DNA from: Anaerolineae bacterium
Lineage (GTDB): Bacteria; Chloroflexota; Anaerolineae; Aggregatilineales; UBA3940
DNA: 35,544 bases
NCBI GenBank assembly: GCA_016926255.1
Contig: JAFGOY010000062.1
Span: 1-35,544, forward strand
Direction: 5' to 3'
In this document: piece after piece, positions 5,653-34,391 of the stretch
Layout: every line of letters starts with the position of its first letter
Numbering within the stretch: position 1 is the stretch's first letter
Notes under the pieces: model-generated
What the model was told of the DNA's origin: nothing
The model's database searches: none
The model's input: only the letters and a program-made list of their open reading frames with translations
Program-made: the position numbers and the translations under genes

Positions 5653-7383
5653 TTACAAAGCAATATGTACTTCATTCAATCGCTCGATGATCGCCTTGCT
5701 GAAAGCTTCCCGACTATAACGCTGTTCGATATCCGCGCAACCCCGGAGCGCTTTCTCGCGGGCTTCTTCCGGGTGTTCGATCACCCGCTTCATCAGGCGG
5801 GCAGCTTCGTCGAGATCAGGGTCGGCCCAGTGTTCGCCCCTGGTAAACGGGCCAACATCTTCTGCCAGTTCCACCAGTCGATACGGCACCGGGTAACTGT
5901 TCTCCGGGGTCATGAAATCCATGTTGCCCGAATAAGCCGTGGCGATCACCGGCTTCCGGTGCAGCATCGCTTCGGACAGCGTTGCGCCATAACCCTCGCT
6001 CCGGTGCAGCGACACATATGCATCGCAGGCGGCAAACAGGGCATCGATCTCCGCACGGCTGGTAGAGCAGTTGATTAACTTTCCACCGACTGATTTTACC
6101 GCAGAGCGTATCTCTGATGCGGCAGCCGGAAATTGATCAAGTCCCTTCGTTTTCAGCACCAGCAGCGACTCGTCGAAGTCAGGGGCGAAGGCCCGCCGGT
6201 AGGCTTCGATGAATCCCTGCGGGTTTTTCCGCTCGACGGTCGAGTAAGGGTCGAAGACGAACAGGAAGATGCGTTTGTCCTCCGGCAGTCCCAGATCGGA
6301 ACGGGACAGGCTGACAGGCGCAGGGCGAGGAATGATGATCGGCATTCTTAAAACAGGAACGGACAATACCGGTTCCAGCGATTCTTTAACAAAATTGCTG
6401 CCGACCCACACTTCGTTATAGATGCGCAGATTGTCCATCAACAGGGGCGGAAAGCGGTTGAGTTCCCACCACAGGAAAGCGATATTATACCGGTTGAGCA
6501 GTTTCTCCTCGCCAAGCAAACGGACGAAATACTGGTTCAACCCACCCAGGTAGATCAGGTTGATGGCGTGCGGGTTGCCTGCCGGGAGCGCCAGTTCGGG
6601 GTAATCTTGCATGCGGCCCGGCACCCCAACCAGGTCGATCTGTGCCACCGGGATCGACTGGCCGGAAAGCGCCTGGATGATATCGCGCGAGACGCGCCCT
6701 ATCCCCGACTCGTCGCGCAGAAAACCAATGACGTTCACCCCCATTTCCGCCTCGTGGATGATCGCCTTACGCTCCTGGCGATCAATCGACAGCGGCAGCA
6801 CATTATGCTCCGAAAAAACATCGGCGACGACATTCACAAATATCTGGCTGATCCCGATTTTCTCCAGCAGGGATAAGAACACCATATACAGACGATAGAG
6901 CGGCCTTTCTTCACGATAGAGGGTGTAGACCCATAACGAAAATCGCCGGTTCAATGATCGCCACAACCGCCGCAGTGGTCGGCGGCGCTGATCGGCCAGT
7001 GCCTGCTCTACTGCTTCGTAAAACACCGGGGCGATCTGCTCCCCCTTCGCCCACTCGATGAACCAGCAGACATATGCCGCCTGGTCGATTCCAAAGAGGT
7101 CGGGAAACCGCTGCTGGCAGTCGGGGCGCAGCCGGTAGACTTCAAGCGCAAGGTTGTTGAACAATGCCGGTTCGCTGCGGCCTCCCGAAATGACGTCGGG
7201 CGCTTCCACCGGGCTTTTCAGCCAGTCGAAAAAGCTGTTCGACCCATCGACGCGATGCGGATCGGGCCAGGTGTGAGTGTAGCCTTTCGTCCGTGACCAT
7301 ATCTGGCGAATCACCGGTGCGACGGGCACGCCATTGCTGAACGAATCAACCTGAGTGGGCCATTCGACACCTGACCGGGTCAT
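5653..7383 (-). CDS. Glycosyltransferase, GT4 family (GT-B fold)
   Basis: This 576-residue protein transfers a sugar from a nucleotide-sugar donor to an unidentified acceptor. The C-terminal half has the GT4 signature: SLHRSEGYGATLSEAML, followed by KPVIATAYSGNMDF. The glutamates of this loop bind the donor in the family. The DPYSTVERKNP segment resembles the interdomain region of GT4 enzymes. The first 190 or so residues do not match a domain I recognise and make the protein longer than a typical GT4 enzyme. Its ATG overlaps the stop of the upstream ABC exporter by 4 bases (ATGA), so translation is probably coupled. The position between an exporter and a polyketide synthase suggests that it glycosylates the polyketide or its lipid carrier. 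The acceptor is inference. Confidence 0.85.
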   Translation of the reverse strand: MTRSGVEWPTQVDSFSNGVPVAPVIRQIWSRTKGYTHTWPDPHRVDGSNSFFDWLKSPVEAPDVISGGRSEPALFNNLALEVYRLRPDCQQRFPDLFGIDQAAYVCWFIEWAKGEQIAPVFYEAVEQALADQRRRPLRRLWRSLNRRFSLWVYTLYREERPLYRLYMVFLSLLEKIGISQIFVNVVADVFSEHNVLPLSIDRQERKAIIHEAEMGVNVIGFLRDESGIGRVSRDIIQALSGQSIPVAQIDLVGVPGRMQDYPELALPAGNPHAINLIYLGGLNQYFVRLLGEEKLLNRYNIAFLWWELNRFPPLLMDNLRIYNEVWVGSNFVKESLEPVLSVPVLRMPIIIPRPAPVSLSRSDLGLPEDKRIFLFVFDPYSTVERKNPQGFIEAYRRAFAPDFDESLLVLKTKGLDQFPAAASEIRSAVKSVGGKLINCSTSRAEIDALFAACDAYVSLHRSEGYGATLSEAMLHRKPVIATAYSGNMDFMTPENSYPVPYRLVELAEDVGPFTRGEHWADPDLDEAARLMKRVIEHPEEAREKALRGCADIEQRYSREAFSKAIIERLNEVHIAL

Positions 7384-9224
7384 GCTTTGTATCCTTCGGC
7401 CTGTATCGTGAAGAGGTGGGCATAGAGTCCCCGGCGGGCGATCAACTCGTCGTGACTACCAAGTTCGGTCAGTTCCCCCTCGTTGATCACCGCGATCCGG
7501 TCTGCCATGCGCACGGTGCTGAAACGGTGGGAAATCAGGATCGCGATTTTGCCTTCGGTTAGCTGGCGGAAATGCTGGAAGGTGTGATATTCCTGCTCGG
7601 CGTCCAGCGCGGCGGTCGGCTCGTCAAGGATGAGGATCGACGCATCGCGCATAAACGCCCGGCTCAGGGCAACTTTCTGCCACTGACCTAAACTCAATTC
7701 CTGCCCATCCGCAAACCACTTCCCCAGCACGGTATCGTAGCCATTGGGCAGTGACTCGATGCTCTCATGCGCGCCGCCTTTGCGGGCCGCCTCGACGATC
7801 CTTTCACGGTCGGAGAGCGCGTCGATCTGTCCTACCCCGATATTCTCCGCCGCCGTCAGATGATAATGCACATAATCCTGAAAGATCACGCCGATCTGTT
7901 TGTGCCACTCGTCCGGGTCGAGCGCCCGGAGATCGACTCCGTCGATCAATATCTGCCCCTCGGTCGGGTCGTAGAGCCGGGTCAGCAGCTTGATCAGCGT
8001 CGTCTTGCCTGCCCCGTTCAATCCGACCAGCGCCAGCTTTTCGCCGGGGTGGATGCTCAGGTCGATGTTGCGGAGCGCCCACTCCTTCTGGTTCGGGTAG
8101 CGAAACGACACGCCGCGAAATTCGATATAGGACTGGATGACGGCGGGGGTCGGCTGTGGCTGCGTCGGGGATTGAACCTTCGGCTCGATGGCCAGAAAAA
8201 CAAAGAGATTATCAACGAACAGGCTGTGCTCGTGAAGCTGGAGGAACATCCGCAGCATGTCCTGGGTGATGTAGTGCGACTGCTCGAAGACTTCGAGGTA
8301 AAGCACCGCCTCACCGAAACTGATCGACTGGTCGATGGCCCGGTAGATGATCCAGCCGATGGCCCCCAGATAACCAACCACACCCAGCGTTCCCCACAAC
8401 AGGCTGATCGCACTGCGCTTTTTGGCCAGCTTCATATCGGCGCGGAACAGCGGCCAGAACTCGTCGAGATACTGCTGGATGAACCAGCCGCCGATGCCAA
8501 ACAGCTTGATCTCCTTGACGTAGCGGTCTACGGTAAGCTGTTCTTTGAAGTAGATCAGGCGGCGGCGTTCGGGGGCCTGCCCGCTCAACAGGCGGAAATT
8601 CAACTGGCCGTAGTGACTCTGCAAAGCGAAGCTGGGCACGGTCGCAAAGAAGAAGATCGCCACCAGCCAGGGGCTGAATCGAACCAGCAGGAACAGGAAT
8701 GCCAGGAAGGTCATGCCGGTTTGCAGAAGCTGGAAACACAACGTCACGACGTTCATCGCCCGCTGATCGGCCTCGGATTGGGCGTTCTGCAATTTATCGT
8801 AGAACTGCGAGTCCTCGAAATGGCCCAGGTCAAGGGTCAGGGCCTTGTTCATGATCAGCTTGTTGATGTGGAGACTGAGCCGGGCGCTGAGGTGTTTCTC
8901 GACGAGGTTGCGTCCTTGCATCCCGGCGTTGAACACGAACTGGAAGCAGAAGATCAGGGCCAGCATGGGAATCAGAACTTCGAGGCCCGCCCAGGCCGTG
9001 ACTCCCTCCGCGACGAAATTCACCACGCGGTCGATCATCAGCTTCTTCGTCCAGGCGATGGCGGGCGGTACCATGCCGACGATCAGCGCCAGCAGGGCCA
9101 TCACCACCGACCCTCTGGGGCTGGCCTGCCAGATCAGTTTTAAGGCTCGTGGTAAATTTCCGTACGATTGTTTGAGTCGCTGCCGCCAGTCTGGTGCTTC
9201 AGTCAAAGGGATGCGCCACCTCAA
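7380..9224 (-). CDS. ABC exporter, fused permease and ATPase (MsbA-like half transporter)
   Basis: This 614-residue protein is a type IV ABC exporter half. Its N-terminal region of about 330 residues has several hydrophobic segments, and an ATPase domain follows. The ATPase has Walker [10 protein letters not shown], a slightly divergent signature [14 protein letters not shown] (usually LSGGQ), Walker [12 protein letters not shown] and the H-loop ISHRFST. It would act as a dimer in the cytoplasmic membrane. The start is a TTG that overlaps the upstream TGA by 4 bases (TTGA). No in-frame ATG lies near it, and the overlap fits the pattern of this operon. The next gene is joined by the same 4-base overlap. 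Export of the glycosylated polyketide is the natural guess from context, but the cargo cannot be read from the sequence. Confidence 0.92.
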
Positions 9225-10789
9225 CTATCCGGGTTTGACTGTTTCTTCGACAGCCCCTGCATCTGTGCGCGGGTACGCATCATTTCCATGATCTGATCGC
9301 GGGTCATCGCAGAAGAAGAAATCATCTCGGTGAAGTCCTCACGGCTCAGGCGCATGGTGACCAGTTCTGCATCACCCCCGGCGCGGATCGTCGCGCTGCG
9401 CGTACCGCCTTCCATCAACCCGGCTTCTCCGAAGAACTCTCCGGCTTCCAGCTTCCTGACTTCCGCGTCCTGCCCGCCGGGCTGGTGCATCAGCACCTCG
9501 GCTGTTCCCTGGACGACAATATAGAAAGCATCGGCAGGATCGTCCTGCCGGAAGACGACTTCACCGGGGCTGAAGGTCACCGCCTTAGCCGCCAACAGCA
9601 AATTCCGGAACTCGATCGTCCGCAGATTTGGCAGCGCCTCGCCAACCTGAATCTCCATCGCACGTTTGCGCATCAGGTGCAGCAGTTGATCACGGGTCAG
9701 GTCAGAATTAGAAACGAGGTTGGTGAAGTGTTCGCGGTCGAGCTGCATGGCGACCAATTCGCCGTCATCAGGGACACGGACGGTGGCGGTGCGCGTACCG
9801 CCTTCCATCAAGCCCATTTCGCCAAAATACTGCCCGGTTTCCAGCCGCCCAACCTTGACCTCTTTCCCGCTGGGATGGTCAATATAGACGTTCGCCTCCC
9901 CCCGGATGATGATATAAAAGAAGTCTGCCGGGTCGCCCTGCCGGACGATGACCTCGCCGGGGCCATACTGCACCGGCTCCAACTGGGACGATACCTGCGC
10001 CAGTTCCTGCTGGGTCATCAGGGGGAGCGCCTCGGCGACATACTGGTCGGCGATTTCACCGTCGTTGATGAACACCACGCGGGGGATGCGCCCCGCCAGT
10101 TCGCGGTCGTGGGTGACGACCAGCACGGTCTTCCCCTGTGATACCAGGGTCTCGAACAACTGGAAGATCGAATCGGCGGTCTTGGAGTCGAGGCTGCCGG
10201 TCGGTTCGTCACCGACCAGCACGTCGGGATCGTTCGCCAGCGCGCGGGCTATCGCCACCCGCTGCTGCTGCCCGCCGGAAATCGCCGCCGGGAACTTGTG
10301 GGCCTGATCCGCCAGATCGACGATCTCCAATAACTGCAAGGCCCGCTCTTTGCGCTCATGAGGGGGATAGGTCTGGCGCAGTTCCATCGGCAGCATGACG
10401 TTTTCCAGCACGGTCAGCGTGGGCAGAAGCTGGAAGAACTGGAAGATCACCCCCAGGCTGCGCCCGCGCCACGCCGCCATCTGGTCTTCGTTGAGAGTGT
10501 GGATCGGGACATTGCCGATGATGACTTCGCCGAGCGTGGGGCGGTCGATGCCGGTGATCATGTTGATCAACGTGGATTTGCCGCTCCCTGATTTCCCGAT
10601 CACGGCGACGAATTCACCCGCGTTGACGGTCAGATCGACGTTCTTGAGCGCGGTGAACCCTCCGGCGGGTGTCTCGTAGACTTTGAGCACCTGACGGAGT
10701 TCAATGAGTGTCCGTGGCTCCAAACCTGTCAAGGAGTTGCCCTGTGGAATGGTCGCAGCAGTGGATCTGGTTTTTCTGGACACGCGCAC
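9221..10789 (-). CDS. LolD/MacB-type ABC ATPase fused to two cyclic-nucleotide-binding domains
   Basis: The N-terminal 250 or so residues form a MacB/LolD-type ATPase. It has Walker [10 protein letters not shown], signature [15 protein letters not shown], Walker [13 protein letters not shown] and H-loop VVTHD. Two cNMP-binding domains follow. Each keeps a full phosphate-binding cassette, [17 protein letters not shown] and [17 protein letters not shown], including the Arg expected to bind the phosphate. No transmembrane segment and no FtsX-like permease partner is visible in the window. The start is uncertain. An in-frame ATG at 10909 lies upstream of a TATAAT box at 10842-10847, so I prefer the GTG at 10789 or 10783. 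The gene leads the exporter and glycosyltransferase operon. Its ATPase may be gated by cAMP, cGMP or a related ligand, which is inference from the domains. Confidence 0.88.
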
Positions 10790-10911
10790 ACTCTCGCTTT
10801 CTATACTTACATCCCTTAGATTATTTCCGTACAATCTACCTATTATAATGGGCCGACTCGGTTGGAAATGCAATCGACATATATAATAGCATACGTTGAA
10901 GGCAAACACCG
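10790..10911. promoter_or_regulatory. Divergent promoter region for the ABC/PKS operon and the phosphopantetheinyl transferase
   Basis: Two TATAAT hexamers lie back to back. One is on the minus strand at 10842-10847, facing the ABC operon. The other is on the plus strand at 10882-10887, facing the transferase. Neither has a strong -35 box at 17 bases, so the assignment rests mostly on the perfect -10 boxes and the divergent gene layout. Shared control would link carrier-protein activation to the biosynthesis operon. Confidence 0.42.
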
Positions 10912-11634
10912 ATGGATGAGATCACGCCGCTCACAGAAGGAGATATCCATATCTGGCAGGCGGATGCCGCCGGGCTTGCGCCGCAGCAGATGGAACTATC
11001 GGCGCTGCTCTCGCCTGACGAAGAGGCGCGGGCACGGGCGTTCCACACCGATCGACAGCGCGATCACTACATCTGCCGTCGGGGTTTGCTGCGGCATCTC
11101 CTCGGCGCGTACGCCGGGCGCGATCCGCAAGCGCTGAGATTCGACTATGGGCCGTATGGTAAACCCGCCCTCACCGAAGACTCTTCCCTGTCGTTCAGTG
11201 TGTCGCATTCCGGCGACCTGCTGGTGATGACCTTTACACTCAACCAGCCGGTGGGTGTGGATGTCGAGCAGATTCGCCCGGTCGAAAACCTCGACACGCT
11301 GGCCCGGCGCACGCTCACCGCTGACGAGTACCGGCACTTTCTGTCGCTGCTGCCCGACCTGCGCCTGAACGTCTTCTTTGCTTACTGGACTGTGAAAGAG
11401 GCGATCATGAAAGCCTCAGGGCGAGGGCTGAACCTGCCCGCAGCCCAGATCGGCATCGAGTGGGTGGCGAATGGATCGCCCCGACTGGCCTGCATCGCAG
11501 GTGATCCGGCGGCGTCCTCACGCTGGCATCTTCGACAGATAGCCCTCGGCCCGGAGTACGCGGCGGCGCTGGCCGTCGATGGGCAGGTGGCGCAGGTGAC
11601 GGTATATCGCTGGCCTGACCACGTGGATATTTGA
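10912..11634 (+). CDS. 4'-phosphopantetheinyl transferase (Sfp/HetI type)
   Basis: This 240-residue enzyme would move the phosphopantetheine arm of coenzyme A onto a serine of acyl or peptidyl carrier proteins. The magnesium-binding and catalytic motifs of the Sfp group are present: [10 protein letters not shown] near the middle and [19 protein letters not shown] downstream. The SVSHSGDLL segment matches the conserved SxSHS motif. The length is typical of Sfp-type enzymes and exceeds AcpS. It is transcribed divergently from the ABC, glycosyltransferase and PKS genes and most likely activates the PKS carrier domain beyond the left edge. The ATG at 10912 has only a weak GA-rich ribosome site. 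Confidence 0.92.
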
Positions 11635-11782: not shown

Positions 11783-12415
11783 CTACGCCAGATTGGAGGA
11801 ACTGAGGAAATCATGTTGAACGCCGGGGACAACAGATTGCATATGACAAACCAGCATCTCCCGCAGTGTCATTCGAGACAGAAGACTGCCGGGAATCTGG
11901 TTGCCAAGCAGCAGAAAGATGAAGCCATGTATCGCCGCCCACAGGCTGACGGCGAGCAGCTCGACGTCGTCTGATTCGATTAGCCCGGCCTGCTGGCAGT
12001 CGAAGACGAGATCGGTGACCAGCTTGAGGCTCTTTTTTGACTGTTCAACGTATTCGGGATAATTGGCTTCCTGCTCGACAATGCCCGAAAAGGTCACCTT
12101 GAAGTGATCGGGCCTGTCGGTGGCAAATTGCAGATAGGCCCAGGCGACTTCGATTAATCGCCGGGCCGGGTCGTCGGGGCAGCCTGCGGCGGCTTCGGCC
12201 AGCGCCTGATAAAGTCTGGCATATCCTTCGGTGGCAATCGCGGCGATGAGCGCCTGCTTATCGGCAAAGTGGGCATAAGGAGCAGTGTGACTGACTCCCA
12301 CCCGGCGGGCCACTTTGCGCAGGCTTAATGCCTGCACACCCTCCTTCGAAAGAATGTCGACCCCCGCCTCGATCAGGGCGTTTTTCAAGTCTCCATGATG
12401 GTATTGATCGCTCAT
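11783..12415 (-). CDS. TetR-family transcriptional repressor
   Basis: The protein has 210 residues from the chosen ATG. The N-terminal helix-turn-helix is typical of TetR: ALSLRKVARRVGVSHTAPYAHFADKQALIAAIA. The C-terminal ligand domain resembles the WHG-type TetR C-terminal region in length and hydrophobic pattern. A longer frame starting at 12445 would include the promoter, so MSDQYHHGDL at 12415 is preferred. No clear ribosome site precedes this ATG. The predicted transcription start is within a base or two of the codon, so the message may be leaderless. It lies divergent to the MFS, aldolase, aminotransferase and kinase operon. Two palindromes in the shared promoter are its probable operators. 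The inducer is unknown but is probably a substrate or intermediate of that operon. Confidence 0.93.
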   Translation of the reverse strand: MSDQYHHGDLKNALIEAGVDILSKEGVQALSLRKVARRVGVSHTAPYAHFADKQALIAAIATEGYARLYQALAEAAAGCPDDPARRLIEVAWAYLQFATDRPDHFKVTFSGIVEQEANYPEYVEQSKKSLKLVTDLVFDCQQAGLIESDDVELLAVSLWAAIHGFIFLLLGNQIPGSLLSRMTLREMLVCHMQSVVPGVQHDFLSSSNLA

Positions 12416-12422
12416 AAAAGGT

Positions 12423-12451
12423 ATGTTAACACACAATCTTGACACTGTAAA
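12423..12451 (-). promoter_or_regulatory. Predicted tetR promoter
   Basis: On the minus strand, TTTACA (12446-12451) and TAACAT (12423-12428) are separated by exactly 17 bases. The -35 box lies inside the first operator palindrome, which would give autorepression. The expected start point falls next to the ATG at 12415. Confidence 0.55.
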
Positions 12452-12454
12452 GAT
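12436..12454. promoter_or_regulatory. TetR operator, copy 1
   Basis: The 19-bp near-palindrome ATCTTGACACTGTAAAGAT has 8 of 9 paired positions matching. It covers the -35 boxes of both divergent promoters. The second copy is centred 33 bp away, three helical turns, so two repressor dimers would bind the same face of the DNA. Confidence 0.7.
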
Positions 12455-12467
12455 GCTCTGCTATGAT
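12439..12467 (+). promoter_or_regulatory. Sigma-70-type promoter of the MFS/aldolase/aminotransferase/kinase operon
   Basis: A perfect -35 TTGACA (12439-12444) and a -10 TATGAT (12462-12467) are separated by 17 bases. One operator palindrome covers the -35 box and the other sits just after the -10 box, the usual arrangement for repression. Confidence 0.8.
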
Positions 12468-12468
12468 A

Positions 12469-12487
12469 ATCTTACCAGTGTAAAGAT
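12469..12487. promoter_or_regulatory. TetR operator, copy 2
   Basis: ATCTTACCAGTGTAAAGAT repeats the copy-1 consensus, with 7 of 9 paired positions matching. It overlaps the expected transcription start of the operon. Confidence 0.65.
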
Positions 12488-12509
12488 ACGCAAAAAAGGC
12501 GGCATCAGC

Positions 12510-13751
12510 ATGGACAATCACAAAGACAACACAGGCTTCCGCGTCTACGGCTACCGGTGGGTGGTCCTGGGCGCTTTTATGTTCATCAACCTGACCATCC
12601 AGATACTATGGATCAGCTATGCGCCGATCACCGGGCCAGCCGCGAGTTACTACGGGGTCACCGACCTGCAGATCGGCTTTCTGGCGATGAGCTTTATGAT
12701 CGCCTTCGTCCCGCTGTCGATCCCCGTCTCGTGGATCATCGACACCTACGGTTTCCGGGTGGCGGTGAGCATCGGCGCGATGCTGATGGGAATATTCGGC
12801 CTGATGCGCGGGCTGGTCGGGGACAGTTATTCGCTCGTCCTGATCAGCACTATCGGGGTGGCCGCCGCACAGCCTTTCCTGCTCAATGCGTGGACGACTG
12901 TACCGGCTAAATGGTTTGCCCCGGAAGAACGGGCCACCGCCGTCGGGCTGGTCACGCTGGCGAACCTGATCGGGACGGCACTGGGGATGGTGCTCACGCC
13001 GATCCTGCTGGAGCAGATGGCTATCCCAACCATCCAGCTGATCTACGGTGGGGCGACGGCCCTCTCGTCGGTCTTGTTCATCGTGCTGGCAAGGGAAAAG
13101 CCGCCGACGCCGCCCTGCCCGGAAGGGATGGAAGTACGCGCCCTGATGCTCGATGGTCTCAAGCATGCCCTGAAGATCAAATCGTTCTGGTTCTATTTGC
13201 TCGTCTCGTTCATCGGGATGGGTATCTTCAACGGGATCACCACCTGGGTGGAGAACATCATCCGCCCGCGTGGGTTCACCCCCACCGACGCGGGAACGCT
13301 CGGCGCGCTGATGCTGGCGGGCGGGCTGGTCGGGGCGGTGATCATGCCCACGCTTTCCGATAAGCTGCGCAAGCGCAAGCCCTTCCTGCTGATCGGGATC
13401 ACGCTGGCGATTCCCGGTCTGCTGGGGGTCACCTTTGCGACGAGCTACTGGCTGCTGCTCGTCTCGGCGTTCCTGATGGGCTTCTTCCTGGTCAGCACCA
13501 GCCCGATCGGGATGCAGTACGCGGCGGAGATCACCTACCCTACCCCCGAAGGGACATCGAACGGGCTGATCCAGCTTTTCGGTCAGGGGGCGGTGGTCTT
13601 CGTTTACATCATGGAAGCGATGAAGGGACGTGACGGATCGTTTACGCCGTCGCTGTTGTTTGCCGCCGGGCTGATGGTTGTCAGTGCAATCCTCATCACT
13701 CAACTCAAAGAATCGCACGTCGAACAAGTGAATACAGAAGGGAATCTATGA
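12510..13751 (+). CDS. MFS transporter, FLVCR/DIRC2-like
   Basis: This 413-residue membrane protein has about 12 hydrophobic segments and the major facilitator layout. The N-terminal YRWVVLGAFMFINL, then WISYAPITGPAASYYGV, resembles the FLVCR branch, whose animal members move heme or choline. The substrate here cannot be read from that resemblance. The ATG at 12510 follows an AAAAAAGGCGG ribosome site. A longer frame from 12423 would run through the promoter and operators and was rejected. It is first in the operon, and its TGA overlaps the aldolase ATG by 4 bases. It probably imports the compound degraded by the next three enzymes. A decayed sugar-binding-protein tail after the kinase suggests that an ABC system once did this job. 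Confidence 0.88.
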   Translation: MDNHKDNTGFRVYGYRWVVLGAFMFINLTIQILWISYAPITGPAASYYGVTDLQIGFLAMSFMIAFVPLSIPVSWIIDTYGFRVAVSIGAMLMGIFGLMRGLVGDSYSLVLISTIGVAAAQPFLLNAWTTVPAKWFAPEERATAVGLVTLANLIGTALGMVLTPILLEQMAIPTIQLIYGGATALSSVLFIVLAREKPPTPPCPEGMEVRALMLDGLKHALKIKSFWFYLLVSFIGMGIFNGITTWVENIIRPRGFTPTDAGTLGALMLAGGLVGAVIMPTLSDKLRKRKPFLLIGITLAIPGLLGVTFATSYWLLLVSAFLMGFFLVSTSPIGMQYAAEITYPTPEGTSNGLIQLFGQGAVVFVYIMEAMKGRDGSFTPSLLFAAGLMVVSAILITQLKESHVEQVNTEGNL

Positions 13752-14440
13752 ATCGCTACGAATCGATCCGGCAGCAGGTCGCCGATTATGGCAAGAAGCT
13801 GGTTCACGAGGGCTATCTCAAGGGAACCGGGGGGAACGTATCGATCAGAGTGCCCGGCGAAGCGGCGCTGGCGATCACGCCCTCGAACCGGGACTACCTG
13901 ACCCTCACCCCCGACGACATCTGCGTCTACACCTTCGACCAGGAAAAGATCGCAGGCGATCTGAAGCCTTCCATCGAAATGGGGCTGCACATCGCCGTGT
14001 ATCAGAATCGCCCCGACGTGGGCTGCGTGATGCACACCCATCAGGATTTTGCCAGCGCGCTTGCGATTCTAAAGAAGCCGCTGCCCGCCCTGTTCGATGA
14101 ACAGGTGCGCTTTTTAGGGCGTTCGGTCGAGATCATCCCTTATGCGCCTTCGGGCACGGGGATGCTCGCCAAACAGGTCAGGAGGATGGTGAACAATCAT
14201 CACAATGCCTACATCATGAAGAATCACGGGGTGTTGTGCATGGGGCCAACCGCCGAGAGGGCCTATCACAACGTGCTGCTGCTGGAAAAGGCCGCCACTG
14301 CCTATTTGCTGGCCCTGTTCAGCGGCCAGAAAGTAAACACGATACCGCTGTCCATCCGTGAGATCGCCTTTCAGAAGCTGCGCAGCGAACAGAAGAAGAT
14401 AAAAAAACAACTCGACGAATTGAATGAGAAGGATGCTTGA
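13748..14440 (+). CDS. Class II aldolase/adducin-family protein (fuculose- or ribulose-phosphate type)
   Basis: This 230-residue protein belongs to the zinc-dependent class II aldolase and 4-epimerase family. The glycine-rich phosphate-binding start GTGGNVSIR is at residues 27-34. Glu77 in PSIEMGLH is the likely acid/base. Zinc ligands are His96 and His98 in MHTHQD and His160 in KNHGV. Family members cleave or epimerise sugar phosphates such as fuculose-1-phosphate or ribulose-5-phosphate. The 4-base overlap with the transporter and near-contact with the aminotransferase place it firmly in the operon. The FGGY kinase two genes downstream could make its phosphorylated substrate. Whether it is an aldolase, an epimerase or a decarboxylating relative cannot be decided. 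Confidence 0.9.
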   Translation: MNRYESIRQQVADYGKKLVHEGYLKGTGGNVSIRVPGEAALAITPSNRDYLTLTPDDICVYTFDQEKIAGDLKPSIEMGLHIAVYQNRPDVGCVMHTHQDFASALAILKKPLPALFDEQVRFLGRSVEIIPYAPSGTGMLAKQVRRMVNNHHNAYIMKNHGVLCMGPTAERAYHNVLLLEKAATAYLLALFSGQKVNTIPLSIREIAFQKLRSEQKKIKKQLDELNEKDA

Positions 14441-15894
14441 TGTCCGAGAACCAGTACGCCATATCTGAATATCACGACGCAGATGAAATCAACGCCCGGC
14501 TAAAAGAACTGGTCGGCCAGCCGCTGCACCCCATCCGCCGCGACAAAATGGAGGAATACCTCCGCTATTTCGATACAAAGTGCAGCCGCTCGAAGGCGAT
14601 GACCGACGAAGCCAAGACGATCATACCCGGCGGCGTGCAGCACAACCTCGCTTTCAATTACCCGTTCCCTCTGGCCGTCAGGAAGGTCGAGGGCGCTTAC
14701 ATGTGGGACGAGGACGACAACAAGTACATCGACTTCCTGCAGGCGGGCGGCCCGACCGTGCTGGGCAGCAATTACCCGCCGGTGCGCGACAAGGTGCTCG
14801 AACTGGTGCGGGAATGCGGCCCGGTAACCGGACTGTTCCACGAGTTCGAACTGAAGCTGGCACAGAAGGTTCAGGAGCACATGCCCGGCATCGAAATGTT
14901 CCGCATGCTGGGGTCGGGAACCGAATCGGTGATGGCGGCGATCCGCGCGGCACGAACCTTTACCGGCAAGAAGAAGGTGATCAAGGTCGGTGGGGCGTAT
15001 CACGGGTGGAGCGATCAAATGGTCTACGGCCTGCACATCCCCGGCACGCGCACCTTCGAGGCGAAGGGCATCCCCGGATCGGCGAGCAGGCACACCCAGG
15101 AATTCTATCCCAACGACCTGGGGCAGCTTCACCGCAGGCTGATCGCCAACCGGCTGCGGGGCGGCACCGCCGCCGTGATCGTCGAGCCGCTTGGCCCGGA
15201 GAGCGGCACCCGCCCGGTGCCCTTCGATTTCAATCAGCAGGTGCGTGAATTGTGTGACCGGTTCGGGGCGCTGCTGATCTTCGACGAGGTGGTGACCGGT
15301 TTCCGCGTGGGAATGGGCGGCGCACAGGGCTACTTCGGCGTGACACCCGACCTGACCATCTTCGGCAAGTGCATTACCGGCGGCTACCCGATGGCGGGCG
15401 GCGTCGGCGGACGGAAAGAAGTCATGCAGCGGTTCGCGCCGGGGATCGGCGGGACGGGCGAGCGGGCCTATATCGGCGGGACGTTATCGGCCAACCCGAT
15501 GAGCTGTGCGGCGGGCTACTACGCCATCGAGGAGATGGAACGCACCAACGCGGCAATATTGGCGGGTCGAGCCGGTGACCGGCTGACCAGAGGCTTGAAG
15601 GAGATCATCGAGCGGCTGGGGCTGCCTTTTGTGGCCTACAACCAGGGATCGATTGTCCACCTCGAAACCGGTGCGGTGATGCTGCTGGATGTCAGGAACC
15701 CGGTCAAGCTGCTCAAAGAATTGAAGCCCCGCAAGCACATGATGGAAGAAATGGGCGCGGCGTATATGTCGCAGGGGGTGGTGACACTGGCCGGAAGCCG
15801 GATTTATACCAGCATGGCCGATACCGATGAGATCATCGACGAGGCCCTCAACCGTTTCGAAACTGTTCTCTCAAGTGTCGAAGGCATTGCCTGA
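14440..15894 (+). CDS. Class III aminotransferase, glutamate-1-semialdehyde aminomutase-like
   Basis: This 484-residue PLP enzyme has the class III fold. PLP-contact motifs include GSGTESVMAAIRAAR and GGAYHGWSDQM. The aspartate region is IFDEVVTGFRVG, and the Schiff-base lysine is in IFGKCITGGYPM. The overall pattern resembles glutamate-1-semialdehyde 2,1-aminomutase, but the protein is longer than HemL and has an extra N-terminal segment of about 45 residues. The operon context argues for a catabolic role on an amino sugar, amino alcohol or omega-amino acid rather than heme synthesis. The ATG at 14440 overlaps the aldolase stop by one base (TGATG), which is preferable to the TTG three bases earlier. 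The substrate is unknown. Confidence 0.9.
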   Translation: MSENQYAISEYHDADEINARLKELVGQPLHPIRRDKMEEYLRYFDTKCSRSKAMTDEAKTIIPGGVQHNLAFNYPFPLAVRKVEGAYMWDEDDNKYIDFLQAGGPTVLGSNYPPVRDKVLELVRECGPVTGLFHEFELKLAQKVQEHMPGIEMFRMLGSGTESVMAAIRAARTFTGKKKVIKVGGAYHGWSDQMVYGLHIPGTRTFEAKGIPGSASRHTQEFYPNDLGQLHRRLIANRLRGGTAAVIVEPLGPESGTRPVPFDFNQQVRELCDRFGALLIFDEVVTGFRVGMGGAQGYFGVTPDLTIFGKCITGGYPMAGGVGGRKEVMQRFAPGIGGTGERAYIGGTLSANPMSCAAGYYAIEEMERTNAAILAGRAGDRLTRGLKEIIERLGLPFVAYNQGSIVHLETGAVMLLDVRNPVKLLKELKPRKHMMEEMGAAYMSQGVVTLAGSRIYTSMADTDEIIDEALNRFETVLSSVEGIA

Positions 15895-15912
15895 CGGCAA
15901 AAGGAAAGCCCA

Positions 15913-17514
15913 ATGGACGACAACTCGCTATTCATCCTGGTACATGATGTCGGCACGACCGGCAATAAGTCCTGCCTGTACCGCATGGGGGATCGACTCG
16001 AACTGGTCGATTCGGCGTTGGAGGAATATCCGCTCTATGTGATGGACAACGGCGGCATCGAGCAGGATCCGGACGAATGGTGGGGGGCGATCAGGAAGGC
16101 GACTCGAACCCTCCTGGAACGGACAAAGGTTACGCCGGAGAGCATCAGGGCGATGGCCTTCTGCGCCCAGATGCAGGGCTTCATCCCGGTCGATCAAAAC
16201 GGCGAGGCGCTCTACCGGGCGATGAGCTACATGGACAACCGGGGCACGGAGCAAATCAAACGTTACCTGCACAGCGGGGCGATCCGGATCGAGGGGATGA
16301 ACGCCGTCAGGCTGCTCTCGTCGCTGCGGCTGACCGGCGGCGTATCGGCATCGGTGAAAGACCCGGTCTGGAAATACCTCTGGCTGCGTGACAACGAGCC
16401 GGAAATTTTCGCCGCGATGGACAAATGGATGGACGTCAAGGATTACCTGGTGCTGCGCAGCACCGGACAGTTTACCTTCGGCTACGATTCTGCCCATGCG
16501 ACCTTCCTGTTCGATACACGCCCCGGTAAGCTGCGCTGGCACGAAGGCTTGTGCCGCACCTATGACGTCGATATTGATCACCTGCCGCCAGTCATCCGTG
16601 CGACCGATCAGGCGGGGGCGCTGACATCGAAGGCGGCGGCGGAACTCGGATTGCCCGAAGGTCTGCCGGTTTTTGGCGGTGGCGGCGACCTGTCGATGAT
16701 CACGCTGGGGGCGGGCTGCTTCGACAGTGACACGGTTCACATCTACATCGGGACGTCGGGCTGGGTGGTCGCCACCGTCGACAGGCGCATGACGGATATC
16801 GACGGGATGGTCGCCTCGATCCTCGGCGCGGTGCCGGGCAAATACAACTACATCTCCGAGCAGGAGACGTCGGGGCGATGCCTGCAATGGGTGCGCGATC
16901 ACCTGGTGCTGGACGAGATCGGGGTGTACCTTGAAAGCCAGACGATCAGCGACAAACAGGAAGAGTATCGTTCGCTATACGATTATCTGAGCAAAGTCGT
17001 AGAGACCGTCGAACCCGGTTCCGGGGGAGTCCTTTTTGCGCCCTGGCTGCACGGCAATCGATCCCCATTCGAAGACCCGTATGCGCGGGGGATGTTCTTC
17101 AACATCAGCCTGGAAACCGGCAAGAGCGAACTGCTCCGATCCGTCCTGGAGGGCGACGCCTATCACAAGCGCTGGATGCTGGAAACCATCGAGAAGAAAG
17201 TGCCCCGCGCCGATACCCTCCGGCTGGTGGGCGGCGGTGCCCGGTCGAATGCCTGGGCGCAGATTCTGGCCGATGTGACCGGGCGGACGATTGAGACGGT
17301 CAAACACCCGGAGAATGCCGGGGCAACCGGGGCCGCGCTGACCTGCGGTGTGGGGCTGGGACTGTTCTCGTTCGCCGACGCGGGCGACATGGTCGGGATC
17401 GATAGAACGTTCAGGCCGCGCCCGGAGAATCAAGCCGTCTACGACAGGTTGTATGCCGTATTCCGTCGGCTCTACCCGCAAAACCGGCGGCTGTTCCAGG
17501 CACTCAACCGGTGA
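15913..17514 (+). CDS. FGGY-family carbohydrate kinase (xylulokinase-like)
   Basis: This 533-residue kinase phosphorylates a sugar or polyol with ATP. The N-terminal phosphate loop HDVGTTGNKSCLY and the conserved EQDPDEWW are FGGY hallmarks. Asp259 in GGGGDLSMITLGAG is the likely catalytic base. The C-terminal adenosine-binding stretch LRLVGGGARSNAWAQILADVTG is intact. The length is near that of xylulokinase. The GGGGDLS context differs from the usual GGxDQ form, so the substrate may not be xylulose. AAAGGAAA lies about 8 bases before the ATG. It follows the aminotransferase by 18 bases and closes the intact part of the operon. It would feed a phosphorylated ketose to the class II aldolase. 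Confidence 0.92.
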   Translation: MDDNSLFILVHDVGTTGNKSCLYRMGDRLELVDSALEEYPLYVMDNGGIEQDPDEWWGAIRKATRTLLERTKVTPESIRAMAFCAQMQGFIPVDQNGEALYRAMSYMDNRGTEQIKRYLHSGAIRIEGMNAVRLLSSLRLTGGVSASVKDPVWKYLWLRDNEPEIFAAMDKWMDVKDYLVLRSTGQFTFGYDSAHATFLFDTRPGKLRWHEGLCRTYDVDIDHLPPVIRATDQAGALTSKAAAELGLPEGLPVFGGGGDLSMITLGAGCFDSDTVHIYIGTSGWVVATVDRRMTDIDGMVASILGAVPGKYNYISEQETSGRCLQWVRDHLVLDEIGVYLESQTISDKQEEYRSLYDYLSKVVETVEPGSGGVLFAPWLHGNRSPFEDPYARGMFFNISLETGKSELLRSVLEGDAYHKRWMLETIEKKVPRADTLRLVGGGARSNAWAQILADVTGRTIETVKHPENAGATGAALTCGVGLGLFSFADAGDMVGIDRTFRPRPENQAVYDRLYAVFRRLYPQNRRLFQALNR

Positions 17515-17527
17515 CGGACTCTCGCGG

Positions 17528-17689
17528 GTCATTTTAAATCAATCAGACGCCTTCTCCCCCGAATGGTACGGCGACAAGCTTCTCGATCTTGCTCTCAAGA
17601 TTTTGCAGGGCAAGCCCGTCCCGCCAGCAGTCTACACGGAGCATGTCTTCATCGACCAGGAGAACATCAACATCTACTACCCGGACTGA
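17528..17689 (+). pseudogene. Relic of a sugar ABC transporter substrate-binding protein (C-terminal 54 codons)
   Basis: One frame after the kinase stop reads FSPEWYGDKLLDLALKIL, then GKPVPPAVYTEHVF and ends INIYYPD with a stop. This is the characteristic C-terminal end of LacI-like periplasmic sugar-binding proteins, which usually end in a similar PPAVYxxHVxITxxNxxxYYP pattern. The remaining 250 or more residues, the signal peptide and a start codon are absent. The homology starts abruptly about 13 bases after the kinase stop, which looks like a deletion junction. Confidence 0.75.
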
Positions 17690-17731
17690 TAGCAGGAATC
17701 GATCAGTAAACATAATCTATTGAACTTAAGC

Positions 17732-17764
17732 CCCCGCCAGGATCGTCTGGCAGGGGTCTTTTTT
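17732..17764 (+). terminator. Rho-independent terminator after the kinase operon
   Basis: CCCCGCCAG pairs with CTGGC(A)GGGG across a 6-base loop with one bulged A. The run TCTTTTTT follows, a strong intrinsic terminator. It probably once ended the transport/catabolism operon after the binding-protein gene. Confidence 0.85.
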
Positions 17765-17768
17765 CATC

Positions 17769-17801
17769 CGATAGGGCAGCGGGGAGACATGTCGAACCGC
17801 T
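17769..17801 (+). repeat. Terminator-linked repeat tail, copy B
   Basis: CGATAGGGCAGCGGGGAG is identical at 22754-22771. Both copies continue into a 5-bp stem, AGCGG with CCGCT, around a 14-base loop, directly after a GCCAGG-type terminator. Confidence 0.6.
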
Positions 17802-17888
17802 TTTTATTTTCCGAGGATGTGATTGCCAGTATACTGGAACTGGACAGGATGAGGAAGTTGATAAAGCAATATTTGTTGGAGAACAAAA

Positions 17889-20507
17889 ATGTCCCAACCT
17901 TTGCTGGCTACCAAATTAAACCCTCCTGCTAACCCACCACATTCTATCAGGCGAAACCGTCTCACCGACCAACTCGACACACACCTGATTGAAAAGGATA
18001 AATTTCAGCGCAAATTGTCGCTGGTATCAGCCCCCGCAGGATATGGAAAGACCACACTGATTGTTGAATGGTTAAATACGATCGACATCCCATCTGCCTG
18101 GTTGTCACTTGAAAGCGGTGATAACGATCCAATCCGCTTTGTTTCGTATCTGGCTGCCGCGTTACAGCAGATCGATCCGACCATGGGGAATGCGATAGAT
18201 AGTCTTCTCCAGAGCGGTCATCCCCCTCCAGCGGAAGTGCTGTTCAATCACCTGATCCACGAGATTGCCGCCCACCCTACCCCATTTGTCCTTGTTCTCG
18301 ATGATTATCACGAAATTGCTAACCCGGAGATTCACCAGGCGGTTGCTTTTCTGTTAGAACATCAACCGCAACAAATGCATCTGGTACTCCTTACCCGCGA
18401 GGACCCATCGTTTCCACTGGCGCGACTTCGATCGAGGGATCAGGTGGTCGATATTCGCCAGGACGGGCTGCGATTCACAGTCGACGAGGTGACGCAGTAT
18501 CTGAGCGACCGATTGCAGATCGAACTCTCTGATGAAGATATCGAGACCCTGCAAAAGCGGATCGAAGGCTGGCCGGTTGGGCTGCAGCTGACAAGCCTGC
18601 TGCTGCAGGGAGAAACCGATATCCATAAATTGTTGTCGTCACTTACCGGGAGCAGCCGGTATATCATGGATTACCTGATCGAAGAAGTGCTGGAGCAGCA
18701 ATCGGCTGAAGTGGAGCGTTTCCTGCTGCAAACCTCCATCCTTGACCGGTTCTGTGTCCCGCTGTGCGATGCAGTGACCAACGGTAGCGATGGTCAGAAG
18801 GTGCTTCAATATCTTGAGCAGGCCAATCTCTTTCTGGTGCCGCTGGATCACAGGCGGGAGTGGTATCGATACCACCGGCTGTTTGCGGATTTACTGCGTC
18901 ACAGGCTCAGAATGCGCGACTCTTCCGGGGTGGCAGAACTGTATAACCGGGCAAGTGACTGGTTTGAATCTGGGGACATGCTGGTCGAGTCAATCGATTA
19001 TGCGCTGGCGGCTGAAAACTGGGAGCGGGCAGGGCGGCTGCTTCTGGAAATCAGTCGAGACATGCTGACGCGGGGGGAGATTACGTCGCTCCAGAACTGG
19101 TACAAACAGTTCCCGGAGGATTCTCTCAGAGAGACCCCGGAATTGTGTGTGGAAGCGGCATGGCCCTTCGTGCTGGGGGGACAGTTCGATCAGGCCGAGA
19201 CTCTTGTTGCGTTTGCACAGCCCTACATCGCCGGGGACGAGCAGTTAAAGATACAGGTGGTGACTGTTCAAGCGTACGTTGCCTGGCAGCGGGGGAATAT
19301 TCAGCAGGCAATCGAGTGGTCATCGGAAGTGCTCGCTTATGGGGACACGATCGATGTGGGTATACAGTGCCTGCTGGGGTTGAACCTGGGGATGGCCTAC
19401 TGGCATCAGGGGCGGATGGCTGAGACTGAACAATTTTTGCAGGTGGCTTTGCAGGCGGCACAACAGGTTAACAATCAGTATGTACTTTTTGCGGCACGGC
19501 TCTTTCAGGCGAGGGTGTTTGCCGTCAGGGCGGAGCTGGTGGCAGCGAACCAGATACTGAACGAACTGGCAGCAATTGAAGTTCAGATGCCAATCATGGC
19601 ACTGGTGCATCAGGATATCGGGTATATCCACTATGAGTGGAACGATCTGGAGAAGGCGGCATACCATTTCGAGGTGAGCCGGGAAGTCAGTGAGAGAACC
19701 GGCAATAATGACTTCCTGACGGCGGCTCACCTGGGAATGGCCCGATTGAAACTCGGTCAGGGGAATATTCAGAGTGCCGAAGACGCCGCGCGTTCGGCGT
19801 ATAATCTGGCTCAGGAGTATGGACTATCGCCGCAGCTAACGGCGCGGATCATTGCCTGTCTGGCGCAGGTGATGATCGCGCAGGGCGCACTGACCGAAGC
19901 CGCGACCTGGATCGGTCAGATGCCGGTACCCGCTGACCCTCATCCTTTCTACCGGTTCATGAACATGATCCCCGGCTGGCTCATGCTGGCAGAGGGGAAT
20001 CGAGAGCCGGCAGCCACTCATTTCGCCGGGCAGGTCAAACAGGCTGAACAGATGGGCTGGCAGTACGGGATCATCGTGGGGCGGATTTATCAGGCATTGG
20101 CGGCGGAGAGTATCGAAGAAGGCAGTGATTTTCTAACCGAGGCCCTGGAAACGGCACATTCGGAAGGAATGGTTCGATCATTCATCGATGCGGGACAGGG
20201 ATTTGTCCCGATGCTTCATCATGTGGCGCAGCAGGGGATTTATCCGGCATTTGTCGGGCAAATTCTCACTGGGCTGCAAGCCGATCGGGCTGTGCCGGTT
20301 GGGGATGGCCTGCTCGATCCGCTGAGCGACCGCGAGATCGAAGTATTGAATTTGCTGGTAGCAGGCCTCACCAATCCCGAAATAGCCGATCAATTGATTG
20401 TCAGCCTGGGGACGGTCAAGACACACGTCCACAATATCTACAGCAAGCTCGGCGTGCGGAATCGCGCTGAGGCGATTGCTCGCGCCACGGAACTAAACCT
20501 CCTGTAA
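17889..20507 (+). CDS. MalT-like LuxR-family regulator (STAND ATPase, TPR, LuxR HTH)
   Basis: This 872-residue regulator has the MalT architecture. Walker [11 protein letters not shown] is at residues 48-57 and a Walker B-like [10 protein letters not shown] lies near 140. A winged-helix region and long helical TPR-type repeats fill the middle. The C-terminal LuxR helix-turn-helix is [22 protein letters not shown], then [14 protein letters not shown]. In this class, ligand and ATP binding drive multimerisation and transcription activation. The ATG has GGAG about 9 bases upstream. The next genes, a 41-residue membrane peptide and an apolipoprotein N-acyltransferase-like protein, are the nearest likely targets, but the ligand and regulon are unknown. 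Confidence 0.93.
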
Positions 20508-22718: not shown

Positions 22719-22753
22719 CCCCGCCAGGAACAATTCTGGCGGGGTCACTTTTT
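22719..22753 (+). terminator. Rho-independent terminator after the 79-residue gene
   Basis: CCCCGCCAG pairs perfectly with CTGGCGGGG across an 8-base loop, and CACTTTTT follows. It closes the transcription unit of the acyltransferase-like and 79-residue genes. Confidence 0.85.
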
Positions 22754-22786
22754 CGATAGGGCAGCGGGGAGTTGAGCCGAACCGCT
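22754..22786 (+). repeat. Terminator-linked repeat tail, copy C
   Basis: The first 18 bases are identical to copy B at 17769-17786. The AGCGG/CCGCT stem and 14-base loop are also conserved. The 180 bases from here to the LysR gene hold no other gene that I can support. Confidence 0.6.
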
Positions 22787-32124: not shown

Positions 32125-32601
32125 ATGACTGTTATCGTGTTTAACGGGTAGATAACTGCCTCAGGTAGACTTGAAGCCGATCTTCCACCCGGGCTGCCAT
32201 CCGGCAAGGTGCGAATCACAATCCAGATCGAAGAAACCTGGACAGATGAAGAACTGGCCGACTTGCTGCGTCCGGGGCCTTCACTCACTGGCAGTGAGAT
32301 CGTCGTTTCCGGTGTCAGGCTGGATGACCAAACGATGCGGCTCAGTGTGTCGGATAATGGGGCCGGGTTTACCCCCGCACGTCTGGCAAAAATCCGTGCG
32401 GAGATCAGCGATTACTCGCAGGCGCTGCGTTTCAAAGACAGTGGCTTTGGTCTGGACAACGTCAATAAGCGCGTTCGATTGTACTACGGTGAGGAGCACA
32501 AGCTGGAGATAGAAAGTGTTCACGGGGAACATACAAGTGTATCGCTGGTCATTCCGATTCTGGGCAAGAATAATAATGGCCGGGCCGTTGTCTCGCCGTA
32601 G
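32125..32601 (+). pseudogene. Chimeric relic: antitoxin-like N-terminus joined to a histidine-kinase ATPase end
   Basis: After AAAGGAG, an ATG opens MTVIVFNG and then a TAG stop. The same frame continues ITASGRLEADLPPGLPSGKV, then WTDEELADLLRPGPSLTGSEIV, a pattern I associate with small antitoxin-like proteins. Near codon 62 it switches to MRLSVSDNGAGFTPARLAKI and FGLDNVNKRVRLYYGEEHK, then VSLVIPI. These are the N, G1 and G2 boxes of a YesM/LytS-type histidine-kinase ATPase. The sensor, dimerisation and phospho-acceptor histidine parts are missing. The region from 32209 could be translated from a GTG as 130 residues, but it would not be a working kinase. Confidence 0.6.
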
Positions 32602-32891: not shown

Positions 32892-34391
32892 ATGAATCAA
32901 ATACTGCTCGAAACACACGGGATCAGCAAGTCTTTTCCTGGCGAACACGCTCTCAAGGATATCAACTTCGATATTCAACCAGGAGAAGTTCATATTCTGC
33001 TGGGTGAAAACGGTGCGGGGAAATCGACGCTGATCAACATATTGAGTGGGGTCTACCCGCCTGATACCGGCCACCTGCTTTTTAAGGGGCAGGAAGTCGT
33101 CTTTACCTGTCCTGCCGATGCCCAGCAGGTGGGGATCAGCGCGATTTTTCAGGAACCAAACCTGATTCCGTATATGTCGGTGGCCGAAAATATTTTCCTG
33201 GGCAACGAACCCGGCAGGGGAATGAACCAGATCATCGACAAGACCCGGCTGGTCGACCGCACCCTGGAATTGATCGACGAGTTAAACCTGGCCCTCGATC
33301 CGGAGACGGAGGTATCGGAGTTATCGCTGGCTGAAAAGCAGATGGTCGCGGTCTTACGCACAATCAACCAATCGGCAGATCTGGTGATCATGGATGAGCC
33401 GAGTGCGATGCTGACCAACCGCGAGACATCCCAGTTGCACAGCGTGATTAGGCGGATGCGGTCACAGGGAGCCGCCGTTCTCTATGTGACCCACCATCTC
33501 TCCGAGGCGATGCAGATCGGCAACCGGGCCACCATTCTTCGCGACGGTCGCAAGATCGCAACGGTCGCCATCGACGCCACCAGCCAGCACGACCTGATCC
33601 GGTTGATCACCGGGCACAAAAACGCGACCCGCCGATCATCAATCCACCGTCCGCACCGGATGGAGCGGGAGGTTCTTCGCCTGGAAAACGTCTCGACGGC
33701 AACCGGCATCGACAACGTATCTTTCAGCCTCCACGCCGGTGAAATCCTGGGGATCACCGGGCTGATCGGAGCGGGCGGCACGCGGCTTTTCGAAACGGTT
33801 TTCGGCGTGGAACCTCTGCTGGGCGGCGAGATTTACCTGGATGGCAACCCGGTGACCATCGACTCGCCGCAGGTCGCGACCAGGCTTGGCATTGGCTGGC
33901 TGACAGAAGAACGGCGCGAGCAGGGGCTGGTTCTGGAGATGGACGCCCAGAACAATATGACACTTGCCGTCCTCAGAAAGCTCGGCATTGGCCCGATCCT
34001 CAACCTGGATGAAGAAGGCAGCATTGTCGCCCACTACGCGCAGCGATTGGGGATTAAAGTGAGCAGTCTCACCCGGCGAACCCGTGAACTCTCCGGAGGA
34101 ACGCAGCAAAAAGTCATTCTCTCGCGCTGGCTGGCAAGCAGCAGCCGGGTTCTGCTCATCGATCAGCCAACGCGCGGTCTTGATATTCAGGCTCGCGGGG
34201 AACTCTATGATCTGCTCAACGATCTTGCCCGCCGGGGCATCGGGATCATCGTCATCAGCTCGAACATTGACGAGATATTGAACCTGTCGGATCGCATCAT
34301 CATCTTACGGAAAGGACGCATCATTGACATTCTATCGAAGGCGGAGGCAAACCCGTATCTAATTACAGCACTGTCCAGCGAAGGTGTATGA
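32892..34391 (+). CDS. Sugar ABC transporter ATPase (RbsA/XylG/MglA type, two ATPase domains)
   Basis: This 499-residue protein has two ATPase domains in tandem, as in RbsA and MglA. Domain 1 has Walker A LLGENGAGKST and Walker B LVIMDEPSAML, with a divergent signature LSLAEKQMVAVLR. Domain 2 has a degenerate Walker A (GLIGAGGTRLFE), a canonical signature LSGGTQQKVILSRWL, and a Walker B LLIDQPTRGLD, where Gln replaces the catalytic Glu. One working and one degenerate ATP site is normal in this family. The start ATG lacks a clear ribosome site. The permease ATG overlaps the stop of this gene. It would power import of a ribose-, xylose- or galactose-like sugar. Confidence 0.93.
   Translation: MNQILLETHGISKSFPGEHALKDINFDIQPGEVHILLGENGAGKSTLINILSGVYPPDTGHLLFKGQEVVFTCPADAQQVGISAIFQEPNLIPYMSVAENIFLGNEPGRGMNQIIDKTRLVDRTLELIDELNLALDPETEVSELSLAEKQMVAVLRTINQSADLVIMDEPSAMLTNRETSQLHSVIRRMRSQGAAVLYVTHHLSEAMQIGNRATILRDGRKIATVAIDATSQHDLIRLITGHKNATRRSSIHRPHRMEREVLRLENVSTATGIDNVSFSLHAGEILGITGLIGAGGTRLFETVFGVEPLLGGEIYLDGNPVTIDSPQVATRLGIGWLTEERREQGLVLEMDAQNNMTLAVLRKLGIGPILNLDEEGSIVAHYAQRLGIKVSSLTRRTRELSGGTQQKVILSRWLASSSRVLLIDQPTRGLDIQARGELYDLLNDLARRGIGIIVISSNIDEILNLSDRIIILRKGRIIDILSKAEANPYLITALSSEGV

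Follow-up and report, generated by a model that had tools for sequence, protein, structure and literature searches.

A short open frame directly behind a carbohydrate kinase gene very probably represents the last ~55 codons of a lost DeoR-DeoRC-Peripla_BP_4 regulator, joined to the end of the kinase gene by a recent deletion. The window, which is the whole stretch of DNA analyzed, is one complete contig (G000:C10; 35,544 bases) from a 4.6-Mb draft genome, G000, that is assembled in 82 contigs and rated 96% complete. Its principal features are the following.

11783 to 12445, minus strand: TetR-family regulator, divergent from the operon, with 60% identity to its counterpart beside the operon in G026
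12423 to 13751, plus strand: MFS carrier at the operon head
13748 to 14440, plus strand: class II aldolase-type protein of the operon
14437 to 15894, plus strand: class-III aminotransferase-like protein of the operon
15913 to 17514, plus strand: FGGY carbohydrate kinase, intact, last gene of the operon
17512 to 17522, plus strand: probable deletion junction, with 7 bases between the kinase stop codon (17512-17514) and the first codon that resembles the regulator
17522 to 17689, plus strand: probable C-terminal remnant of the hybrid regulator, 55 codons and a stop
about 17731 to 17764, plus strand: intrinsic-terminator-like hairpin with a U tract, 3' of the remnant (fold of 17720-17770: -21.1 kcal/mol, z -3.9)
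32892 to 35544, plus strand: RbsA/RbsC-type ATPase and permease, the permease gene being cut by the contig end

Positions 17528-17689 of the plus strand translate as VILNQSDAFSPEWYGDKLLDLALKILQGKPVPPAVYTEHVFIDQENINIYYPD*, which comprises 53 residues and a stop codon at 17687-17689. An earlier note on this DNA had described these residues as the C-terminal tail of a sugar-binding fold behind the kinase, and the tail is real, with matches far beyond chance. Tblastn searches with the regulators of three relatives (G001, G051 and G107) push the match six bases further 5', to 17522; homology is firm from about 17540 and probable from 17522. The remnant sits right after the kinase stop codon. Only the tail is left, with neither a signal peptide nor a full binding domain, and because just this tail remains, Pfam and NCBIfam assign it no family at E <= 1. 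The hairpin that follows is absent from the output of a simple terminator scan. It opens a repeat (17732-17834) that continues into a conserved stretch of ~30 bases, includes part of a palindrome in some copies, and recurs at 22719-22786 on the plus strand and on contigs C76, C7, C26 and C13; eight more copies are present in the genome at E < 0.01.

By its sequence, the remnant comes from a gene that has been truncated and that encoded a sugar-binding fold of the LacI/Peripla_BP_4 kind. Most likely, this fold was a sensor within a DeoR-type regulator of transcription, and not the binding protein of an importer. When the remnant was queried against 121 genomes (its own and 120 relatives), 64 of them matched at E <= 1. 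Fourteen loci in relatives match at E 2.7e-18 to 3e-13, with 53-67% identity. All 14 foreign matches with E < 1e-12 fall in open frames of 568-682 residues, far above binding-protein length, and the weaker matches are a mix of long frames (566-609 residues) and frames of 350-425 residues. Every one of the nine long proteins scanned carries HTH_DeoR, DeoRC and Peripla_BP_4 domains, in that order. Matches also occur in 19 plasmid records (E 1e-5 to 7e-3), and the annotated ones among them are substrate-binding proteins.

Comparison with 74 foreign tails, 49 from regulators and 25 from binding proteins, points in the same direction. The top 38 of these tails in local alignment score all belong to regulators, and the best one shares 37 of 53 residues with the remnant (70%). 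The remnant scores 91.3 bits against a profile of regulator tails and 67.1 bits against one of binding-protein tails, a difference of 24.2 bits for the regulator. In a leave-one-out control, the regulator profile was favored by 47 of the 49 regulator tails and by none of the 25 binding-protein tails, for which the highest regulator-minus-binding-protein value was -0.4. A tree of 75 tails, built on only 68 columns, places the remnant nearest the regulators without deciding the question. It is improbable that the remnant is the tail of an exported binding protein whose ABC importer once supplied the operon, before the MFS carrier took its place. Binding-protein tails are the next-best relatives of the remnant (38-56% identical; for example, 21 of 40 residues), and an AU test on the short-tail tree rejects grouping neither with binding proteins (p 0.448) nor with regulators (p 0.701). 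However, the profile test stands 24 bits in favor of regulators, beyond the best value of any binding-protein tail. The earlier note had called the sequence a relic of a LacI-like sugar-binding protein; the truncation and the fold hold, whereas the parent was most likely a regulator.

The likeness between these protein types is one of fold. RhaS and RbsB-type exported binding proteins (TIGR02637, PF13407) have the same fold as the remnant and occur in clusters with intact regulators but, unlike the parent family of the remnant, lack a DNA-binding part. LacI-family regulators are cytosolic and possess a sensor resembling a sugar-binding protein. They share this sensor with the remnant's parent, and one example is encoded on contig C3 of the same genome; the parent family differs from them in its DeoR-type DNA-binding part and its additional DeoRC domain.

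The gene surroundings also bear on an exchange of transporters. Positions 11783-17514 constitute a module conserved in Anaerolineae (TetR, MFS, class II aldolase, class-III aminotransferase-like protein and FGGY kinase), and the named relatives with the same operon are Anaerolineae/Chloroflexi assemblies. The kinase is complete: alignments with its close orthologues span residues 6/7-532 of 533. Clostridia commonly have kinases that are ~50% identical to it, in some cases with the aldolase and aminotransferase genes divergent from the kinase gene. Eight close kinase loci were compared (G015, G026, G031, G035, G040, L101, L106 and L181; kinase identity 66-72%). A relative of the MFS carrier (72-77% identity) lies beside the operon in six of them. 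The hybrid regulator and the ATPase/permease type of the window were detected at none of the eight; in three of these loci (G035, L106 and L181), the available flank is short or covers one side only, L181 being a 4.6-kb piece. In G035, the ~8 kb upstream revealed no MFS gene, and a contig end cuts off the other side of the kinase. The TetR gene adjoins the operon in all three loci scanned. A Pfam scan of 23 flanking frames from four loci revealed an importer in a single locus, L105, and of a different type (SBP_bac_1 and two BPD_transp_1, with a LacI gene). The earlier note was correct about the MFS gene at the operon head and the ATPase and permease at the right edge, but its proposal that an ABC importer gave way to the MFS carrier is not supported by the close kinase loci. 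These sequences give no hint that an RbsABC-type importer system once included the operon, its MFS carrier or its TetR gene. An ABC importer may nevertheless have stood here, as a neighboring unit, because the relatives of the lost regulator mostly have a divergent one.

The rest of the regulator appears to be gone. The G001 regulator, used as a query in the window's own genome, retrieves the remnant at E 1.5e-15 and otherwise a single match at noise level (E 0.34); HTH_DeoR and DeoRC parts were found by this query neither at the remnant nor elsewhere in the genome, and the sequence is therefore a remnant and not a member of the hybrid regulator family. The remnant itself, as a query, finds itself alone at E <= 10, so that no binding protein of its own genome resembles it in that search. 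Among the eight same-family genomes listed, one (G001) has a match to the remnant. The alignment of the remnant contains a two-residue insertion near the junction, and repeats of 18 bases or more that might have caused a deletion are absent within 17000-18000. Two other rearrangements were considered and rejected. One is an inversion of the stretch from the remnant to the right-edge transporter, which would place the head of the regulator at 30.6-32.9 kb; tblastn with 13 regulators and five binding proteins gave weak short matches only in that interval (E 0.14-0.91). The other is an insertion of the kinase operon into the regulator gene, which was dismissed as no front part of the regulator was found.

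An assembly error could mimic a deletion if the contig joined the kinase operon to a stretch that begins, in the organism, with an intact regulator. The draft state of the assembly, with its 82 contigs, and the lack of decay in the tail would agree with such an error, which is nevertheless hardly likely. The tetranucleotide signatures left and right of the junction are alike (r 0.924), and both resemble that of contig C3 (r 0.909 for the left side and 0.934 for the right), against values of 0.859 or less for stretches of other genomes; by composition, the contig does not look chimeric. Moreover, the downstream flank carries the repeat present on further contigs of the same genome, and no further part of the regulator turned up in the assembly, whose rated completeness is 96%.

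The state of the tail provides an indication of when the deletion took place. The 44-residue core of the remnant outscores 38 of the 49 functional tails and matches all 12 columns conserved at 85% or more, and no deviations occur at bases common to 80% of the 39 tails (out of 49) that were used. Differences from the G001 gene number 7, 5 and 27 by codon position, a pattern similar to that between the functional genes of G001 and G051 (11, 5 and 27). Because the tail shows no decay, the deletion looks recent, and a recent truncation is favored over a tail still under selection. Absence of decay would also fit a retained function, and the coding-type substitution pattern and fully conserved core could be expected of a functional element, for instance a small peptide or the tail end of a kinase fusion produced by frameshifting. 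Such an element is nonetheless very improbable. No ATG or GTG lies in frame within the remnant, and the sole common in-frame start is an internal TTG at residue 26; as an independent short gene, the remnant has no usable start and is not conserved. Its frame also differs from that of the kinase, which has its own stop codon. Conservation in relatives as an independent short gene, raised in the earlier note, was not observed: every match at E <= 1e-5, bar the window itself, lies in an open frame of at least 350 residues.

A recent deletion reaching into the regulator gene would accommodate these findings as follows. Downstream of the kinase operon and in the same orientation, the ancestor would have had a gene for a regulator of ~550 residues, composed of a DeoR-type DNA-binding domain, a DeoRC sensor (by family, of the sugar-phosphate type) and a Peripla_BP_4 sensor (by family, of the free-sugar type). 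This regulator would have been akin to those that, in related Anaerolineae, mostly lie head-to-head with an RbsABC-type importer and that, in G001, reside within an L-rhamnose cluster. A single deletion would then have brought the final ~55 regulator codons up against the 3' end of the kinase gene, removing the remainder and anything between, and a neighboring importer may have been lost along with it. The terminator-like hairpin would have been kept behind the remnant and may now end the kinase transcript, whereas the remnant, lacking a usable start, should yield no protein. No intact copy of the gene was seen at this place, there being no same-genus genome among the relatives listed; for this reason, the deletion is one that we infer.

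Toward its right edge, the window holds a sugar ABC transporter for which the earlier note had seen no binding-protein gene. None is visible, as stated, but the absence is accounted for by the contig end, which falls inside the permease gene. Before this transporter, positions 32209-32601 (plus strand) encode an HATPase_c domain (36.6 bits; cut-off 26.4) and look like a second truncated gene, resembling a sensor histidine kinase at its C-terminus. The large minus-strand frames 7380-9224 and 9221-10909 match ABC ATPases of other loci, and 10912-11634 encodes a HetI-like phosphopantetheinyl transferase, below its cut-off; by these matches, 7380-11634 is possibly part of a secondary-metabolite cluster. 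No RNA family reaches its gathering score anywhere in the window.

Pathway genes for rhamnose were sought elsewhere in the window's genome. An L-rhamnose isomerase (RhaI) query gave one 18-bit match, and a second isomerase query, which had no positive control, gave none. A RhaB query found a kinase of 55% identity on contig C3, adjoining an L-fucose isomerase (above cut-off), a LacI regulator, an RbsABC-type importer and an RbsD/FucU protein. Judging by these neighbors, this is probably a fucose cluster. A rhamnose system may have been lost from this genome.

The intact relatives of the lost gene encode regulators of ~550 residues that combine a DeoR helix-turn-helix, a DeoRC sensor and a Peripla_BP_4 domain. 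The G001 regulator finds matches at E <= 1e-70 in 50 of 396 genomes (one of them partial), and by this measure the hybrid family is common in Anaerolineae. Among 40 regulator loci chosen from the stronger matches, an importer gene lies divergent to the regulator within 1.2 kb in 26 and at 1.2-4 kb in three more (29 of 40 within 4 kb). The importer is on the same strand in one locus, and none was found on the 5' side in ten, of which L230 has just 215 bases of flank. In L224 and L225, which are also among the ten, the importer is on the 3' side, behind a same-strand pair of rhamnulokinase-like gene and hybrid regulator (L224:6206-9565, L225:4990-8339); this order matches that of kinase and remnant in the window, with a different kinase. 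The G001 cluster includes RhaI and RhaS above NCBIfam cut-offs, together with a rhamnulokinase, an aldolase and a mutarotase below them. A RhaS-like gene is present in 15 of the 40 loci, scoring under the RhaS cut-off in two, and others pair with a second binding protein and with an isomerase whose substrate is uncertain. At E 1e-12, the 40 loci showed no standout match of their own to the kinase, aminotransferase or MFS gene of the window, in a search that dropped weaker matches under rhamnulokinases; a 30% match to the aldolase occurs in L223, and one of 24% to the MFS carrier (E 1.1e-12) in L088.

In the G001 regulator (L086:12590-14233), the sensor part is 41-42% identical to the binding proteins divergent from the regulators of G051, G107 and G032 (L087:13318-14202, L088:10806-11696 and L089:6844-7734), as if the regulator had captured a copy of its neighbor. 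Full-length hybrids were not seen on plasmids, where none of 29 matching records reaches 80% coverage, and solved structures match the hybrid by single domains only. Judged from titles and abstract openings, no description of a DeoR/binding-protein fusion was found in the literature. RhaR of Chloroflexus aurantiacus is a DeoR-family regulator of an L-rhamnose operon; in a binding assay, L-rhamnulose, but not L-rhamnose, made it leave its DNA (Rodionova et al., 2013; PMC3870299). It is like the G001 regulator in its DeoR type, rhamnose context and phylum, although the term "sugar-binding" is absent from the main text of that paper; the two are set side by side by description and not by sequence, and the window, unlike C. 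aurantiacus with its RhaR, retains the tail alone.

The remnant itself is a case of ordinary gene loss. It corrects the tempting story of an importer exchanged for an MFS carrier, and it cautions against reading a C-terminal scrap of a sugar-binding fold as part of a transporter before its parent has been checked. Of greater interest is a by-product, the dual-sensor regulator family. Its members combine two sugar sensors with a single DNA-binding part, and the family is frequent in the class. More tentatively, it may form an undescribed, widespread Anaerolineae family in which a DeoR repressor with a sensor of the phosphorylated-sugar type captured the binding protein of a neighboring importer as a free-sugar sensor, thereby bringing the importer under two signals; in the window, this gene would have been lost very recently, and the operon end rebuilt from its tail and terminator. 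The domain content of the intact family suggests such two-signal control and, with the family widespread and its two sensors in place, two-input control of sugar uptake is directly testable.
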